This document shows, in pieces, positions 14,143 through 57,901 of a DNA stretch of 64,000 nt (within the stretch, counting starts at the first letter, position 1; every line of letters begins with the position of its first letter). Below the pieces are notes generated by a model. That model had not been told where the DNA came from. It saw only the letters and a program-made list of their open reading frames with translations, and did not search any database. The DNA is from Gammaproteobacteria bacterium (GTDB taxonomy: Bacteria; Pseudomonadota; Gammaproteobacteria; Eutrophobiales; Eutrophobiaceae): positions 1-64,000 of the forward strand of contig JANQNX010000007.1 in NCBI GenBank assembly GCA_028279365.1, in the 5' to 3' direction. Position numbers and translations under genes: made by a program.

Positions 14143-15111
14143 TTAAAACTCTTCCTCAAACCATATGTAATCAGAATAACTGTTGTTAGGGATGATAGGA
14201 CTTTGTGCCCAGTTACTTATTAACTGAAATATTAATAATAAAGTGATTATGGTTGACTGGACTGATATAAAGAATAATAAAAGTAATATGACAAAGTATA
14301 TTAATGCGCTTCCCGAAAAAGGATTAAATAGGGCTCCAAACAGGAAAGTTAAACTCAATATACAGACACTTGAACAGGAAAATATCAGCAATATCCTAAC
14401 CAGAGTTGAGTCACTATAAACCGAAATCGCACTTAAGCCGTGCAGAATTAAACCGCTAAAGTTCATGCTGGATTTGCCCAGCAGTCTTTCGCCTCTGTTC
14501 GTCGGGATTTTATCTATGGGCAACCTGGATCGAATAATAGTAGCAGGTAGATTTATCCACAATTCGGATCTTGATGCTAGCCTTGTTAATTGAACAGCAG
14601 GAATCAGACAAAAATTACCAAACGAAATCCGTTGTCCTGTTAGATATAGAAAAAGATATTTATAAATTCGATACATGAACCGAAAAAGCAGTGTCTCAGA
14701 GCGCTTACTTCTTTCTGCTACTATAATATTCTCGGGAACCATTCGGTTTTTACTTAATAGCTCCGAGATATACTCCGGTTTATCCTCACCATCAGAGTCC
14801 ATGACTACGACCAAATCGCTTTGTGCATAATTTGCTAAATAAGCAATGCCTATCGCGATGCTTCTTTGCGAACCCATATTGCAGGAAAGATGAAGTATTT
14901 TGATAGTGTCGATTTTTTGAAGTTGACTGACTTGTTGCTGGTGGATTTGATGTTCCAGGCTTGACCCATCATTAATGACCAAAATACTCACTGAGGACAG
15001 GTTCGACCTATCCAAAGTTTGATCAATTTGCCCGATTAGAAGATTAAGAGACTCCCAATCATTATAGACAGGAATCAATATGGTCAGTGCTTTTTGCTGC
15101 AGATCTTCCAA
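14143..15111 (-). CDS. GT2 glycosyltransferase with C-terminal membrane segments
   Basis: 322 residues. ILIPVYNDWESLNLLI opens the GT2 fold, VINDGSS follows near residue 46, and the metal-binding DSD (105-107) lies in VVVMDSDGEDKPEYI. Residues about 235-300 hold two or three hydrophobic segments. It has the DPM1/ArnC/GtrB layout: an enzyme that places a sugar on undecaprenyl phosphate for later use outside the membrane. It is the first gene of the minus-strand run and precedes the multi-pass protein, so the two may form a lipid-carrier side-chain pair, as at the start of this window. The upstream 267 bases face the divergent sugar operon. Confidence 0.8.
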   Translation of the reverse strand: MEDLQQKALTILIPVYNDWESLNLLIGQIDQTLDRSNLSSVSILVINDGSSLEHQIHQQQVSQLQKIDTIKILHLSCNMGSQRSIAIGIAYLANYAQSDLVVVMDSDGEDKPEYISELLSKNRMVPENIIVAERSKRSETLLFRFMYRIYKYLFLYLTGQRISFGNFCLIPAVQLTRLASRSELWINLPATIIRSRLPIDKIPTNRGERLLGKSSMNFSGLILHGLSAISVYSDSTLVRILLIFSCSSVCILSLTFLFGALFNPFSGSALIYFVILLLLFFISVQSTIITLLLIFQLISNWAQSPIIPNNSYSDYIWFEEEF

Positions 15112-51758: not shown

Positions 51759-52715
51759 CTATCCCCAATCTTCTTCCAGATAGCGAATCAGCTCCCCACA
51801 ATTGGCTATTCTCTCAGTTTTTGATTTCGCAATACACTGCAATGTCACTTTTTCGAGCAATTGAGGCACTCTTACCTTGGTTAAACTGGAAGGAGCGGCT
51901 GGCTTTTCATGCAGGATTAACTCAATCATCTCATCAACGATATCTGCAACGAAAGGTGGGCGGCCAGCCAGGATTTCATATAAAACCACCCCCAAGCTAT
52001 ATATATCGGTTCGATAATCAATGTCAGGTTCACGCTGCAGCTGCTCCGGGGACATATACGATATTGTGCCTTGAAGCTTTTCCATGTCAGTAATTGATGA
52101 GGTTTTTTCTCCGGCTGCCGGTAATTCTGTCTTCTCAAGATCAGTACTGCTACTGCCATCAGGATTCCATACCTTTGCCAGACCCCAGTCCATTAGTAAC
52201 ACTTCCCCAAACGGTCCAACCAGTATATTTTCCGGTTTGATATCGCGATGAATCACGCGATGGCTATGCGCGTAATCCAGCGCATGTGCAATTTGTACAA
52301 TGACATTAATAAGCTGAGTTAAATCATAGCGCTCACGGTAATCAAGAATTTCGCGCAGGGTATAACCGTGAACCAGCTTCATGGTGAAATAGTAGTGGCC
52401 TTTGGCTGTTCTGCCGAGCTCATACATAGGTACCGTGTTTGGGTGTTGTAACAGCGCGCCGACTCTGGCCTCGCGCAGAAAACGTTTTTGTTCTATCGGG
52501 TCATTAGCGAATTCCGGTTTCAATGTTTTATAACAAACCGTTCGTGACAGATTTAAATCCTTACAAGATTGAACAATGGCCTTACCGCCCTTGGCGATAG
52601 TTTTAAAATAAGCATAACGAACGTTAGGATCGAGCTTGAGTGGTAGTTCCTGATCCGTTTGTTCCAGGTACACAATCCCATATTCATCCTTGGGGGGTTC
52701 AGGAAATGCCGTCAT
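51759..52715 (-). CDS. Soluble eukaryotic-like Ser/Thr protein kinase
   Basis: 318 residues, kinase domain about 34-318, no membrane segment and no extra sensor domain. The ATP lysine lies in CYKTLK (K64 region), the catalytic loop reads HRDIKPENI (156-164), and the metal motif is DWG in place of DFG (LLMDWGLAKVW, 174-183), a common bacterial variant. The activation segment ends SYMSPEQLQ, and TDIYSLGVVLYEILAGRPPF follows. The first 30 residues are a short extension. It sits directly upstream of GSII on the same strand, with the NtrC sites between. A nitrogen-related target is a guess from position only. Confidence 0.9.
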   Translation of the reverse strand: MTAFPEPPKDEYGIVYLEQTDQELPLKLDPNVRYAYFKTIAKGGKAIVQSCKDLNLSRTVCYKTLKPEFANDPIEQKRFLREARVGALLQHPNTVPMYELGRTAKGHYYFTMKLVHGYTLREILDYRERYDLTQLINVIVQIAHALDYAHSHRVIHRDIKPENILVGPFGEVLLMDWGLAKVWNPDGSSSTDLEKTELPAAGEKTSSITDMEKLQGTISYMSPEQLQREPDIDYRTDIYSLGVVLYEILAGRPPFVADIVDEMIELILHEKPAAPSSLTKVRVPQLLEKVTLQCIAKSKTERIANCGELIRYLEEDWG

Positions 52716-52881
52716 TAATCACTCTCCAATGGATTACTAGGTCTAGCTATTAGGGAATTTTAGTTTACGCTTGTCTGGTTTAAAAATGTACCGAAATTAC
52801 AATAGCATTTAACAGTGAAGTAGTTCGCGTTAAAGGCTATAAATGCTGAACTGATAGGTATTTACCTGGGTCATAAGTTAT

Positions 52882-53520
52882 ATGAAAAAAATTATATTAC
52901 TGATGAAATCATTGACTTTGCTGCTGATTATGACGCCGTTAGTGTCAGTCGCAGCGACGGTTTATAAAGTTGTTGATGAAGACGGCAATATCAGCTTTTC
53001 AGATAAACCCTCGCCGCAGGCTAAAATCATTGAGGTGAAAAAAGCGCCCGTAATTAGCATGCCTGATGTTGAACTGCCAGAAGGTCAAGCTGCTGAGGAA
53101 GAAACAGAAATTACATATCAAACTCTGTTGATAAACAAGCCCGATAATGATCAAACGATTCGCGATAATACAGGCAGTCTTGATATCGTTTTGGCGTTAG
53201 AGCCTGCGTTAAAACAACAGCATAAAATCCGTCTAAGTTTGGATGGAAAACAGGTCGCAACTGTCGATTTGCTTAATCTGAAATTAAATAATATTGATCG
53301 CGGTACACATGAAATCGTTGCCGAGGTCATTGACGAAGAGAGTCAGGTTGTCATCAGTTCAGAAGCCGTCACATTCCATATGCATCGATTCAGTCAGTTG
53401 TTTAATCAACAGAACAATGGAGGGCAGAATAATGGCGCCGTGTCTCCAACTAATCCACCTCGGGGTACGCCACCAGCTGGTCCTGCGCCAGGTAGTGGTC
53501 CTGCGGCTTCCTCACTATAA
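52882..53520 (+). CDS. DUF4124-domain exported protein
   Basis: 212 residues. A signal peptide (LLIMTPLVSVAA) is followed by the DUF4124 motif VYKVVDEDGNISFSDKPSPQA. A second, Ig-like or beta domain covers about 85-165, and the tail is rich in Gly, Pro, Asn and Ala. Proteins of this family occur near ntrBC and glnA in many gammaproteobacteria; their job is unknown. It is one of two adjacent, diverged copies and is divergent from the kinase across 166 bases. Confidence 0.85.
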   Translation: MKKIILLMKSLTLLLIMTPLVSVAATVYKVVDEDGNISFSDKPSPQAKIIEVKKAPVISMPDVELPEGQAAEEETEITYQTLLINKPDNDQTIRDNTGSLDIVLALEPALKQQHKIRLSLDGKQVATVDLLNLKLNNIDRGTHEIVAEVIDEESQVVISSEAVTFHMHRFSQLFNQQNNGGQNNGAVSPTNPPRGTPPAGPAPGSGPAASSL

Positions 53521-53535
53521 ATTACTGACATCGTC

Positions 53536-54072
53536 ATGATAGTTAGCTATTCTCAACGTATGCGTAATCCGGTTTTCATCTTGTTAGCAATGTTTGCGAG
53601 CCTATGCCTCGCGGGTAATGCCGTTTATAAAACCATCGACGAAAACGGAAACGTTATCTTTACCGATCAGCCGAGTGAATCAGCCGAGAAGATTCAGCTG
53701 GATGAGCTGCAAACGATAGAAAATCCTAATCCTGCGAGATTAAAACCGCTGCCGCGCAAACAGCAATCAAGCGCGGTGGACAAGGATTACTATCAGGCCT
53801 TTTCTATCCTTAGCCCCACTATTGGTGAGTCCTACAGGAACAACGCCGGTAATTTCACTATTTCCTTATCACTGCAACCGGCTTTGAGGCCGAGTCATCG
53901 CGTCGTAATTAAACTGGATGGCAAGGAAGTAGCAAATGGTAAGAGCTTGTCCAAGTCGCTGACCAGCCAGGACAGAGGCACCCATACCATTTCTGCTCAG
54001 GTCGTGGATGCAAGTGGTAAAACCATGATTTCCACCTCAGGCAGCTTTACTCTACAACGCGTCTCACGCTAA
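53536..54072 (+). CDS. DUF4124-domain exported protein, second copy
   Basis: 178 residues. A signal peptide (PVFILLAMFASLCLAGNA, probably started from the Met 10 residues in) precedes VYKTIDENGNVIFTDQPSESA, the DUF4124 motif. The second domain (about 90-175) carries YRNNAGNFTISLSLQPALRPSHRVVIKLDGKEVA, clearly related to the same part of the previous protein (IRDNTGSLDIVLALEPALKQ and so on). The pair therefore arose by duplication. Normally such a gene precedes ntrB; here the accessory block lies between. Confidence 0.83.
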   Translation: MIVSYSQRMRNPVFILLAMFASLCLAGNAVYKTIDENGNVIFTDQPSESAEKIQLDELQTIENPNPARLKPLPRKQQSSAVDKDYYQAFSILSPTIGESYRNNAGNFTISLSLQPALRPSHRVVIKLDGKEVANGKSLSKSLTSQDRGTHTISAQVVDASGKTMISTSGSFTLQRVSR

Positions 54073-54224
54073 TTGCACTGATCTTGTTCACCGCGCCATC
54101 GTGTTTTGCACGATATGGGTGATTATCCCCTAGCAACATGTAAAAATAGACGTTTTTTGTTTGCTTGATACTTTTATTTTATTAACAAAAAGATCAACAG
54201 AAATATATTGAAAGCGCTTGAAAA

Positions 54225-54262
54225 TGTGGATAACTACCTTGAAATAGCAGATTTTATCCACA
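54225..54262. promoter_or_regulatory. Two inverted perfect DnaA boxes
   Basis: TGTGGATAA (54225-54233) and TTATCCACA (54254-54262) are exact copies of the strong DnaA box in opposite orientation, 20 bases apart, in an AT-rich stretch. They lie upstream of the Panacea-domain gene. They could control that promoter, act as a small replication-type element, or occur by chance (two perfect 9-mers so close make chance less likely). Confidence 0.7.
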
Positions 54263-54283
54263 ATATAATGTGCATATCTAGTG

Positions 54284-54289
54284 TATAAT
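54284..54289 (+). promoter_or_regulatory. Candidate -10 box for the Panacea operon
   Basis: A perfect TATAAT 82 bases before the start codon, just after the DnaA boxes. No clear -35 is present; the DnaA box ends at the -35 position, so DnaA binding could directly affect this promoter. The rest of the 298-base gap (54073-54370) shows nothing else. Confidence 0.45.
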
Positions 54290-54370
54290 TAACAAATAAT
54301 AATAATAAAGAAGCACGAACGGAAGTCGATATTTTAGGTCACAGGAGAGGTAAAACTTAAAGAGGAAATT

Positions 54371-54820
54371 ATGGCTACTTATTCAGCAATATCTGTTGCG
54401 GATTATATTATCAATAAGGCTTCAGAATCCAATAACACGTTAACACCGATGCAGGTTATTAAGCTTGTCTATCTGTGTCATGGGTGGATGTTAGGCTTGT
54501 ATGGTAGACCACTAATTTCTGAGCCTATAGAAGCATGGAGATATGGTCCTGTTATTGATGATTTGTATCAGGCTGTTAAGAAATTTCGTTCAAACCCGGT
54601 CACAGGATCTTTAGCTCGTCGACCAGTGCTTTTTACAGATGATGAAAAAAACATAATGGATCAAGTTGTAAGAAAATACGAAAGATATTCAGGTCCAGCT
54701 CTATCCAGGCTTACGCACGCTAAAGGAACACCTTGGAGTCAGACTATACAGAGTTTTGATAACTATATTTCAAATGATTTGATCGAAGATCATTTCAAAA
54801 AATTAGCCTCAGTAACATAA
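54371..54820 (+). CDS. Panacea-domain protein (SocA/DUF4065-like), probable antitoxin
   Basis: 149 residues. It opens SAISVADYIINKASESN and carries the family hallmarks TPMQVIKLVYLCHGWMLG and IEAWRYGPVIDDLYQAVKKF, with a C-terminal helix pair (SRLTHAKGTPWSQT). Panacea-domain proteins, including SocA and phage GepA, are known as antitoxins that neutralise many unrelated toxins coded next to them (PanA/PanT systems). A good ribosome site (GAGGA) precedes the ATG. The next gene starts 9 bases later, so the candidate toxin is the membrane protein that follows. Confidence 0.85.
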   Translation: MATYSAISVADYIINKASESNNTLTPMQVIKLVYLCHGWMLGLYGRPLISEPIEAWRYGPVIDDLYQAVKKFRSNPVTGSLARRPVLFTDDEKNIMDQVVRKYERYSGPALSRLTHAKGTPWSQTIQSFDNYISNDLIEDHFKKLASVT

Positions 54821-54829
54821 TATAAAGGT

Positions 54830-55204
54830 ATGTCTGATAAGGAGATACCTGATCCTCCCCCTCCGTCTTCGTTAGAGACTAATCATGATGATATGGCCTT
54901 AGAAGAAACGAAGGCAATAGAATTTGACACATACATAGATCAAGATAAGAGACGAAGAGAACATATTAGGGCTGAAAAGATAAAGGATGCTTTTGCTATA
55001 TCTTTACAATGGGGTATCTATTTAGTCGCGGTATTATTAGTTACGGGAGTTTTAGTGTGGGCGTGGCATTTGCTCACGCCAAACGAACCCCCTTATGACT
55101 GGCACTGGCTAAGCAAAGATCAGTTATATGAAGTACAAAAAGTTATGACAGGCTCTTTATTGGCGCTTGTATTAAGCGAGTTAACACATAAACATTTGAA
55201 ATAA
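54830..55204 (+). CDS. Small membrane protein of Panacea operon, candidate toxin
   Basis: 124 residues. The N-terminal half is acidic and Pro-rich, then charged (DKRRREHIRAEKIKD), followed by one strong membrane helix (WGIYLVAVLLVTGVLVWAWHLL, about 67-90) and a second weaker segment near the C-terminus (VMTGSLLALVLSEL). I recognise no family. Its place right after a Panacea antitoxin makes it a candidate membrane-acting toxin or effector; that is inference from known PanAT gene order. The stop shares a base with the next start (TAATG). Confidence 0.6.
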   Translation: MSDKEIPDPPPPSSLETNHDDMALEETKAIEFDTYIDQDKRRREHIRAEKIKDAFAISLQWGIYLVAVLLVTGVLVWAWHLLTPNEPPYDWHWLSKDQLYEVQKVMTGSLLALVLSELTHKHLK

Positions 55205-55359
55205 TGTCTACAGGTAAATACACGTCCTTAGAAGAAGCGAAAGATGAAAAGCAACTAAAACGCTTCATTAAAGAACATCCATCAAAAGGCAACGAAAAGC
55301 AGTTTGATGATCTATTAGGTCGAATGGCTAAGAATAAACCCGCAAAGGAATCTAAATAG
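55204..55359 (+). CDS. Small hydrophilic protein, third gene of the Panacea operon
   Basis: 51 residues, beginning MSTGKYTSLEEAKDEKQ and very rich in Lys and Glu, with a helical pattern around DDLLGRMAKNK. No family is apparent. Translation is coupled to the previous gene through TAATG. It may be an accessory or regulatory piece of the operon, or chance. The frame continues past it only as the complement of the GIY-YIG gene. Confidence 0.5.
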   Translation: MSTGKYTSLEEAKDEKQLKRFIKEHPSKGNEKQFDDLLGRMAKNKPAKESK

Positions 55360-55372
55360 ATGATGACCGATA

Positions 55373-55690
55373 TTATCGATGCTGAGTATTCATCGGGGGA
55401 TGTAGATGCTGAATTAACATCTGCTCCCACTGATCGCGCTGTGCTTGATCATGAACAACAAGAGCATGAATGTGAGTTGCCCCGTTTTGGACTGCCTCAT
55501 CCAGACGTTCATGGTTGGGTAAGCGAGACTGAAAACTCTCCGCTTGCCCTACATAGAGTGGAAACCAGTTTGCTCCATTCTGGTAAGTAAAGATATATAA
55601 ACCGGGGACATCATTCCAATTATTATTATTATCGACAATCTCAAAATCTAGATGTTGAGTATCATTGATAGGCCAGCTACATGTTGCCAT
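55373..55690 (-). CDS. GIY-YIG nuclease-fold protein, possible transposon passenger
   Basis: 105 residues with one GIY-YIG domain: GLY (30-32) and YVG (46-48) in LYVGQAESFQSRLPNH, the catalytic Arg (R56), the metal Glu (E89, in DQWEQMLIQHL) and a closing PPMN. All expected positions are filled. GGAG stands nine bases before the ATG, confirming this strand rather than the overlapping plus-strand frame. Small stand-alone members have roles from DNA cleavage to unknown. It starts 44 bases after the transposase gene on the same strand, so it may travel with the insertion element. Confidence 0.78.
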   Translation of the reverse strand: MATCSWPINDTQHLDFEIVDNNNNWNDVPGLYIFTYQNGANWFPLYVGQAESFQSRLPNHERLDEAVQNGATHIHALVVHDQAQRDQWEQMLIQHLHPPMNTQHR

Positions 55691-55734
55691 TGTTCTATCT
55701 CCTTGAGTCCTTGAACAATAGCTAGTATAGATTA

Positions 55735-56604
55735 TTAAAAAGCTCCAAGCAGTCTTTCAAACATCCATTTAGGGCTTTTACGCATATTGTATCTGTATTC
55801 AAACTCCCCTAAGTAGTTAGGTAAATACTTCTTAGATACGTGTATGTGAGTACCCCTGATTGAGTTTTTAAGACGGCTCCAGAAGCCTTCAATCGTATTG
55901 GTATGGTGAATACCATTAACCCATTCATCATGCTCATGACAGACAGTACCGTGTTCAAATCCGTCTTTCTCTAGAAACTGATAACAGGGTGCTTCATCGG
56001 TACTAATGACAGTGCCAGCAACAACTTTAGCGTCTACATGCTTTTTAATCGTTTTACGAGTGCGTTTATCTATCACGTAGGTTTGGACTTTACCGTCACG
56101 CTCGACCATGCCATAGACGATGGTTTTACCTTTAAATGGACTCTCACGTTTGTATGATGGAGATCGATTTCTTTTACGGCCTCCCATGAAGGTTTCATCC
56201 ATTTCAACGTGACCACCGTATTGATTGTCACCGTCTACATTGGTCATATATTTACGGATTTCATGACCCATACGCCATGCAGTTTTATACGTTACGCCTA
56301 GTTGACGTTGTAACTCTTTAGCAGGCACACCATGACGCGATGTAGTAAAAAGATACATAGCATAGAACCACTTCTGCAAAGGTGTACGTGATTTCTCAAA
56401 AGGAGTGCCAGCCATAGGGCTTATTTGGTGCGCGCACCACTGACATTGATAAACAGGACGTTTTTGCACCTTTGTAAACCGCGAGTGTTTCTTGCATTTA
56501 GGACACTCAAAGGACGTTCCGAAGCGTATTTCCATCAAATGATTGAGACAATAATCGTCGGTAGGGAAGCGTTTAAAGAAATCAACTACAGTAAAATCAG
56601 ACAT
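55735..56604 (-). mobile_element. IS1595-family transposase (ISXO2-like)
   Basis: 289 residues. The N-terminal zinc ribbon ECPKCKKH and YQCQWCAHQ is followed by MAGTPFEKSRTPLQKWFYAMYLFTTSRHG and the helix-turn-helix KELQRQLGVTYKTAWRMGHEIR. The DDE-type core starts with VEMDETFMGGRKR and continues with ISTDEAPCY and HTNTIEGFWSRLKNSIRGTH, so the acidic residues look intact. I searched the flanks for terminal inverted repeats and did not find a convincing pair, so the element borders are not drawn. The frame is complete; the enzyme may be active. Confidence 0.92.
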
Positions 56605-56806
56605 TTATCATTCCTTACATGAAACATAGGTATAGCATAGCAAAACTACTACATGAGGTAAAGGGATAATTGCGACGATATGGTCTGTTTTTTGCTCAAC
56701 TCATTAACGTGTTTTTTGCACAGATTTAACATGGTTTTTAACTAATTGATTTTTATATAAAAAATATTTCGGCTTTTAAATTCTAATTTTAACAAGGAAA
56801 CAGACA

Positions 56807-57901
56807 GTGAAAACTGCACTAAAACAGTGCAATAATGCGCGAACAATGACATTTAACAGCGATACTTCGACGAGAATTACTGAGCATTTAGCAACAGCCA
56901 TTCTTTTGTTTGATTGTGATTTGAGGTTGGTCTGCATGAATCCCACCGCAGAAGATATGCTCTCCGTCAGTGCAACTCGTGCGGACGGTATGACTCCTTC
57001 TGAGATTTGGCCTAATTCATCGTTTTTTAATCGTGCTATCAGTCAATCAGTTGAGTCGGGTGCCAAGCGTATTGAGCGTGGTGTAGAAATCAATCTGACG
57101 CCGCGGCACAGGATCAAAGTCGATTGCATGATTACACCAATTATCGAAGAGGAGTATCCGACTGAGATTCTGGTTGAGTTGTCTGATGCTAACGCCTATG
57201 AAAAGGTGCTCAATGAAGCGAATCAGCAAACCGTGCAGGAAGCAGCAAAAGAATCGATCCAGGGTATGGCGCATGAAATCAAAAACCCGCTAGGCGGAAT
57301 TCGCGGTGCGGCGCAGTTGTTAGAGCTTGAACTGGAAAATGAAGAGTTAAAAGAATATACGCAGATCATCATTAACGAATCAGATCGACTACGTAAATTT
57401 ATAGATCGCATGTTAACGCCGAGCCGCGTGAACGAAAAATCGGACTTGAACATCCATGAAATTCTTGAATATGTGGTGTCAGTCGTGCGCGCCGAGAATT
57501 CCCAAAATATTAATATTAGTAAGGACTATGATCCCAGTATTCCTGATGTGGCTGGTGACCGCGAACAGATCATACAAGCAGTATTGAATTTAATTCGAAA
57601 CGCCGTCCAGGCTATCGATGAAAATGGCACGATTACATTAAAGACCCGAATCAGACGACAAGTCACCATCCAAAACAAATTAAATCGGCATGTGATCGAA
57701 GTCGAGATTATTGATGATGGACCCGGTATTCCGCCTGAAATTGAAGCCGGTGCGTTTTATCCAATGATAACCGGGCGTGCCGAAGGTACCGGTTTAGGCT
57801 TGTCCATTGCCCAACAAATTATACAGTCTCATGGAGGGCTGATCAGTTATGAACGTGAATACGACGAAACCTACTTCACCATCCTCCTCCCAATGGACTA
57901 A
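56807..57901 (+). CDS. glnL: Nitrogen regulation sensor histidine kinase NtrB
   Basis: 364 residues from a GTG that has AAGGAA seven bases upstream; the ATG at 56846 would give a slightly shorter form. A PAS domain (about 24-130) precedes the phospho-acceptor motif MAHEIKNPLGGIRGAAQLL with His156, and the ATPase domain has NLIRNAVQAID, DDGPGIP and GTGLGLSIAQQI. NtrB phosphorylates NtrC when nitrogen is low and removes the phosphate when PII signals plenty. The upstream 200 bases carry the end of the accessory block rather than glnA. ntrC starts 4 bases after its stop. Confidence 0.95.
   Translation: MKTALKQCNNARTMTFNSDTSTRITEHLATAILLFDCDLRLVCMNPTAEDMLSVSATRADGMTPSEIWPNSSFFNRAISQSVESGAKRIERGVEINLTPRHRIKVDCMITPIIEEEYPTEILVELSDANAYEKVLNEANQQTVQEAAKESIQGMAHEIKNPLGGIRGAAQLLELELENEELKEYTQIIINESDRLRKFIDRMLTPSRVNEKSDLNIHEILEYVVSVVRAENSQNINISKDYDPSIPDVAGDREQIIQAVLNLIRNAVQAIDENGTITLKTRIRRQVTIQNKLNRHVIEVEIIDDGPGIPPEIEAGAFYPMITGRAEGTGLGLSIAQQIIQSHGGLISYEREYDETYFTILLPMD

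Follow-up and report, generated by a model that had tools for sequence, protein, structure and literature searches.

Gene content of the panA operon

The window, a stretch of 64,000 nucleotides from a gammaproteobacterial genome of 3.14 Mb, contains a two-gene operon encoding a Panacea-domain protein (P0001) and a small membrane protein (P0002), preceded by a 228-bp leader that harbors two exact DnaA boxes (Table 1). P0001 matched PF13274 with 73.5 bits (cut-off 25.7) and phrog_1281 at 6.7e-42. The Panacea domain was its sole match: no helix-turn-helix family was detected in P0001, and no solved structure resembled it by sequence. P0002 possesses a hydrophobic segment, and no Pfam family over the cut-off and no NCBIfam family was found for it. 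P0002-like proteins (18-35% identity) were nevertheless encoded immediately 3' of panA in L012, L014, L018, L020 and L021, so that panA has an adjacent and conserved partner gene, as in PanAT systems. From this arrangement we infer a toxin-antitoxin module in which PanA would neutralize a PanT-type membrane-depolarizing protein.

SocA of the Caulobacter SocAB system is also a Panacea-domain protein, and the first-pass annotation had connected the operon to replication through SocA, SocB and the sliding clamp. This connection was not upheld, as P0001 scored 80 bits against the SocA antitoxin model, far below its cut-off of 190, and the partner is a membrane protein that its hydrophobic segment and lack of family match set apart from SocB, leaving no link to the clamp.

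Downstream of the operon, P0003 matched no family above the cut-off (15.3 bits against 53.7 for the addiction antidote model) and had no matches in a search of plasmids; it is possibly a transposition accessory or an antitoxin remnant. The GIY-YIG-like protein that follows stayed below its Pfam cut-off (E 0.00088, 19.7 bits against 22.4). No Rfam families were found in 52500-57500.

Table 1. Features of the panA-carrying transposon and of its host flanks, with positions in the window.
Feature	Position	Strand	Basis or remark
DUF4124 protein, host flank	53536..54072	+	flank comparison
Left target-site duplication ACGATATG, 8 bp	54110..54117	.	identical to 56675-56682
Left terminal inverted repeat GGTGATTATCCCCTAGCAACATGTA	54118..54142	+	consensus common to sister elements
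DnaA box 1 (predicted)	54225..54233	-	exact TTATCCACA
Possible promoter TTGAAA/TATAAT, box 2 in spacer	54239..54269	+	sequence only
DnaA box 2 (predicted)	54254..54262	+	exact TTATCCACA, divergent from box 1
TATAAT of the first-pass annotation	54284..54289	+	without recognizable -35
panA-like gene, 149-aa Panacea-domain protein P0001, probable antitoxin	54371..54820	+	PF13274, phrog_1281
P0002, 124 aa, hydrophobic segment, probable membrane toxin	54830..55204	+	conserved downstream partner
P0003, 51 aa, constant transposase neighbor in sister elements	55204..55359	+	sister comparison
GIY-YIG-like protein, 105 aa, further cargo	55373..55690	-	below Pfam cut-off
IS1595-family transposase, 289 aa	55735..56604	-	PF12762, NF033547
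Right terminal inverted repeat (reverse complement CGCAATTATCCCTTTACCTCATGTA)	56650..56674	-	pairs with left end
Right target-site duplication ACGATATG	56675..56682	.	identical to left copy
Sigma-54-type promoter of ntrB TGGTCTGTTTTTTGC	56681..56695	+	starts with the last two bases of the duplication
ntrB-like histidine kinase, host flank	56807..57901	+	sequence and place before NtrC-like regulator

The operon is cargo of an IS1595-family transposon

The operon is carried by a 2557-bp IS1595-family transposon (54118-56674), which the first-pass annotation had overlooked. Its transposase scored 132.7 bits against PF12762 (1.4e-38), 36.8 bits against PF12760 and, as an IS1595-type enzyme, 214.7 bits against NF033547 (cut-off 75). 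The element is bounded by terminal inverted repeats and an 8-bp target-site duplication, both typical of the family. The inverted repeats are imperfect (17/25 identical), with 1 in 200,000 random position pairs matching as well, and the right tip CGCA deviates from GGTG at its outermost bases. The transposon is present as a single copy in the host genome and contains no replication genes. It was inserted directly in front of the sigma-54-type promoter of a histidine kinase gene that we take to be ntrB from its sequence and its position before an NtrC-like regulator.

Among 30 DUF4124 loci, from 42 genomes with a match, this site was empty in 25 and occupied in 5. In the empty loci, which belonged to family or class relatives with both genes visible, the DUF4124-ntrB gap measured 166-318 bp, and a sigma-54-type promoter (TGG-N8-TTGC or a near length variant) was present in 23 of the 25. 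A congeneric genome (G001) had the empty site.

Four sister elements from four other genera (G019, G007, G012 and G009), with transposases 70-78% identical over their full length, occupied exactly the same ntrB site. Each possessed its own perfect 8-bp duplication (TTCAACTG, TAGGACTG and TCCATATG in three sisters, GTACGATG in G012), and the G012 element was inserted in inverted orientation. As the duplications differ between genomes while being perfect in each, and as one element is inverted, the insertions appear to be independent rather than one old event, and the ntrB site is used repeatedly by these elements. The duplication always ended in TG and was followed by G(T/C)CTG, so that the TGG of the promoter is preserved. 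The promoter-facing tip began with CG and the other tip with GG in four of the five ntrB-site insertions (L067, L128, L129, L133 and window 54118-56674), inverted G012 included. In G012, an extra 730 bp separated DUF4124 from the element (L128 1184-1913).

Other relatives of the transposase were found elsewhere, at 63% identity in G013 and 60-70% in G260, as a 76% fragment of about 105 residues after a tatD-like gene in G016, and at 71% in a phage contig, away from the ntrB site. Of the seven elements with at least 67% identity, five were located at the ntrB site, that of the window included. The site preference in this family is strong but not absolute. Extending the search to the order brought in no genomes from outside the family.

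The cargo differed in each of the five elements. Whereas the window element carries panA, the 124-aa membrane protein and the GIY-YIG-like gene, the G019 cargo encoded a membrane protein and an ImmA/IrrE-type peptidase (PF06114, 3.3e-19; best PADLOC match capP, 6.1e-31), and that of G012 a membrane protein, a 104-aa protein and a PemK/MazF-like toxin (PF02452, 2.1e-10). The G007 cargo consisted of proteins of no assigned kind, and a domain scan of the G009 cargo proteins returned no match. By contrast, a protein of about 50 aa with 63-90% identity to P0003 adjoined the transposase in all five elements and was also present in more distant ones.

A divergent pair of DnaA boxes in the panA leader

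The two 9-mers in the leader had been annotated as exact DnaA boxes 20 bases apart, which the sequence confirmed. They had also been described as facing each other, which is incorrect: the order is TGTGGATAA-N20-TTATCCACA, so that the boxes point outward, the left one to the left and the right one to the right.

Two TATAAT hexamers lie close to the right box. The one at 54284-54289, which had been proposed as the -10 element, is indeed a perfect hexamer, but its -35 slot (54260-54267, ACAATATA) resembles nothing of the kind. A further TATAAT at 54264-54269, absent from the earlier description, is separated by 19 bp from a TTGAAA at 54239-54244, the only near-consensus -35 available to either hexamer. 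With this spacing, the right box would fall inside the promoter spacer. A sigma-70 consensus scan with 16-18 bp spacers returned no site using either TATAAT; the promoter at which the consensus boxes lie is thus itself a predicted one.

Single boxes were unremarkable in the window, since its 3 exact copies (0.73 expected) were equaled or exceeded in 5 of 100 shuffles; the third copy, at 14553-14561, is isolated. The relaxed consensus TTWTNCACA was not enriched in the window (9 against 9.25 expected). The whole genome contained 50 exact boxes, compared to 21 for the reversed motif. These 50 give a genome-wide expectation of about 0.03 pairs within 40 bp, and two boxes occurred in 2 of 1,000,000 simulated first-order Markov leaders. 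The occurrence of two boxes in the panA leader therefore exceeds chance, while the genome-wide chance of some such close pair is small yet not negligible. By box positions, only one other exact pair in the genome is this close (C11:59762/59776). It is a convergent pair (TTATCCACAGAAAATGTGGATAA, G000:C11:59762-59784, L057) ahead of a Sir2-like gene (named by eye), and its identification as oriC was abandoned, as it precedes this gene and dnaA is located on C7.

The sequence identity of the two copies does not extend past the 9-mer, which fits a pair of DnaA boxes better than a longer operator bound by a dimer. Inverted repeats are frequently used by antitoxins for autoregulation, and the symmetric arrangement at a promoter could accordingly be the operator of a dimeric regulator, either the antitoxin of the cargo or a host repressor, with the DnaA-box sequence present in it by coincidence. 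We consider this very unlikely: apart from the limit of the identity, the half-sites lie 29 bp apart from center to center, which is wide for one dimer, P0001 matches the Panacea domain only and no helix-turn-helix family, and homologous leaders do not possess the 9-mer.

Two consensus boxes in AT-rich DNA are also what a DnaA-titrating or -reactivating site of the datA/DARS type, or a cryptic origin on a mobile element, would include. DARS cores comprise DnaA boxes I-III, and a minimal datA has three boxes (PMC5742627). Within 1 kb of the pair, no further box was found even with one mismatch allowed; the pair thus does not form a cluster of at least three boxes of the DARS, datA or oriC type, and the element lacks a replication gene; these identities were consequently rejected as most improbable.

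Host DnaA and similar box pairs in other genomes

The dnaA gene of the host, on C7, encodes a product carrying GGRDHTTVLHACRKI. The product has DHTTVLHACRKI, which we take as the canonical signature for reading TTATCCACA, and the same box occurs beside dnaA, where the dnaA-dnaN gap contained one exact and two one-mismatch boxes. Host DnaA should thus be able to read the boxes of the leader, and it would probably bind them.

The divergent pattern with gaps of 15-25 bp was found in 23 of 369 genomes of the class, compared to none of 369 for the reversed control. Besides that of the window, 22 such loci were obtained, with their genes named by eye from ORFs and short motifs: 13 were at dnaA-dnaN, rpmH or mnmG, one was ahead of an nrdA-like gene, one ahead of mraZ, and 7 elsewhere. 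This concentration at dnaA-dnaN, rpmH and mnmG indicates that the divergent geometry is one of real DnaA sites. Taking together the sequence, the statistics, the signature of the host DnaA and the geometry in other genomes, there is good support for identifying the window pair as DnaA boxes that belong to a Panacea operon leader.

Distribution of the boxes among homologous operons and sister elements

Conservation in homologous operons had been put forward in the first-pass annotation as a check on the boxes, and the result was negative: the boxes were absent from 21/21 leaders of Panacea homologues, even when one mismatch was allowed. These leaders came from 24 loci, after omission of L009, L010 and L011 (a weak match, a second copy and a second fragment). 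Gene starts are uncertain in L005, L006 and L013, and the upstream sequence spans just 219-239 bp in L020, L021 and L025. Viral homologues gave the same picture, with no exact box in 49/49 distinct leaders and one-mismatch boxes in 3 of the 49, compared to 4 for the reversed motif. For this set, 80 loci were kept from 118 relatives, then reduced by 15 with less than 150 bp upstream and by 16 near-duplicates. One viral contig (L175) contained three one-mismatch DnaA-like 9-mers with 11-bp spacing, 22-44 bp before the panA start.

The pair was also absent from the four sister elements: G012 had a single exact box, located in a cargo reading frame, and G007 had two one-mismatch boxes lying apart. 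The box pair is a property of the leader of the window cargo, and neither of this kind of transposon nor of the Panacea family. Any replication control would, from the sequence comparison, be a local feature of the window copy. A pair native to the DUF4124-ntrB gap of the host was dismissed as well, as the empty gaps measured only 166-318 bp and an exact box was found in 0/29 of the relatives' loci.

The distribution bears on a role in transposition. The outside end of Tn5/IS50 has a DnaA box, and the window pair, 108 bp inside the left end, might similarly couple transposition to replication. This identity was rejected and is extremely improbable, since the sisters at the same site, despite transposases 70-78% identical, lack the box pair, and the only one with an exact box has it inside a cargo gene.

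Conservation of the boxes in no homologue or sister element also leaves selection on them uncertain and counts against the explanation that we prefer, as do the empty sigma-70 consensus scan and the lack of a family match for the putative toxin. The absence from homologues and sisters favors the view that the pair arose by chance in an AT-rich leader on recently acquired DNA, with nothing depending on DnaA contact, as does the expectation of about 0.03 close pairs from 50 boxes, which rises when the many motifs that could have been noticed are considered. Chance, however, produced two boxes in very few simulated leaders, and it does not account for the pair surrounding the only promoter-like hexamers near the operon start, or for the concentration of the same geometry at known DnaA-controlled places in other genomes. 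We regard chance as a serious possibility, though not a probable one.

CTGT-N8-ACAG, which we take to be a LexA-type operator, was present upstream of panA in 4 of the 21 homologue leaders (L014, L020, L021 and L024). It was also found in 5 of the 49 viral leaders, compared to about 0.2 expected by arithmetic from eight fixed bases; two of these five repeat the L020 and L021 sequences, and a third shares the operator of L024. Overall, LexA-type operators preceded prophage panA in L014, L020, L021, L024, L154 and L175, while none was found within 300 bp in the window copy. This suggests that some prophage PanAT modules may be under SOS control, and that the window copy would not be.

Predicted effect on operon expression

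With a probability of roughly 0.6, the locus is a site-preferring cargo transposon with a Panacea/membrane-toxin module that acquired predicted DnaA boxes, which probably dampen its promoter. Host DnaA would bind both high-affinity boxes as two separate sites, box 1 just upstream of the -35 and box 2 in the -35/-10 spacer of the likeliest promoter; at the alternative promoter, box 2 would abut the -35 region. Given these positions, bound DnaA would be expected to dampen transcription of the operon. Such an effect on expression is plausible but proposed here only tentatively.

High-affinity boxes bind ATP-DnaA and ADP-DnaA alike, so that the operon would be expected to respond to the level of free DnaA or to replication arrest, not as a sharp cell-cycle switch. 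Lower free DnaA or a replication block could then alter operon expression, and cell-cycle timing of the operon through the boxes seems unlikely.

A precedent for such damping involves dinJ, which is an antitoxin gene. In E. coli, DnaA with LexA represses dinJ, recN and uvrB (PMC6015884). In both cases a toxin-antitoxin or stress gene has DnaA boxes at its promoter, with repression predicted for the window operon; the E. coli DnaA and LexA sites overlap, however, whereas the window has two isolated consensus boxes and no LexA-type site within 300 bp.

Comparison with known elements and implications

Siguier is said to have described, in 2009, IS1595 relatives carrying passenger genes. IS1595-family elements such as ISApl4 (PMC12561309) share with the window element a DDE transposase, short inverted repeats and 8-bp duplications. 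Unlike ISApl4 in that account, the group of the window element exchanges its cargo, which is toxin-antitoxin-like or defence-like, and retains a constant 50-aa protein. It also returns to one precise ntrB-promoter site, whereas ISApl4 duplications are described as preferably A/T-rich and occur in many places. IS1202-family elements at dif sites likewise keep choosing one kind of locus, with a different family and target (PMC10132070).

Membrane PanT toxins are experimentally known, and an association of PanAT systems with transposases and prophages has been noted (PMC8832971). As in the PanAT systems described there, the Panacea gene of the window module precedes one for a small protein that has a hydrophobic segment. 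The module differs from them in its location within a defined IS1595 element, in the DnaA-box pair of its leader, and in that its toxin is a putative one. By titles and abstract starts, the literature on IS1595 toxin-antitoxin cargo or target sites, with most subscription journals outside the scope, contained no account of the window element, nor did that on insertion sequences at sigma-54 promoters and on DnaA boxes with toxin-antitoxin promoters, searched in the same way with few subscription journals.

A broader and rather unlikely extension would be that a group of IS1595-type elements has specialized in the ntrB sigma-54 promoter as a safe docking site and swaps toxin-antitoxin or defence modules between genera; with the window copy wired to DnaA and prophage relatives to LexA, the module would sense replication or DNA damage depending on its vehicle.

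The larger finding than the box pair is the cargo transposon that repeatedly chooses the ntrB promoter. By choosing one regulatory promoter again and again while swapping its cargo, it would constitute a small and tractable analogue of site-specific islands of the Tn7 style, and a natural catalogue in which to look for new toxins. If the boxes work, the window copy would offer a clear-cut example of a mobile addiction module that reads the replication state of its host.
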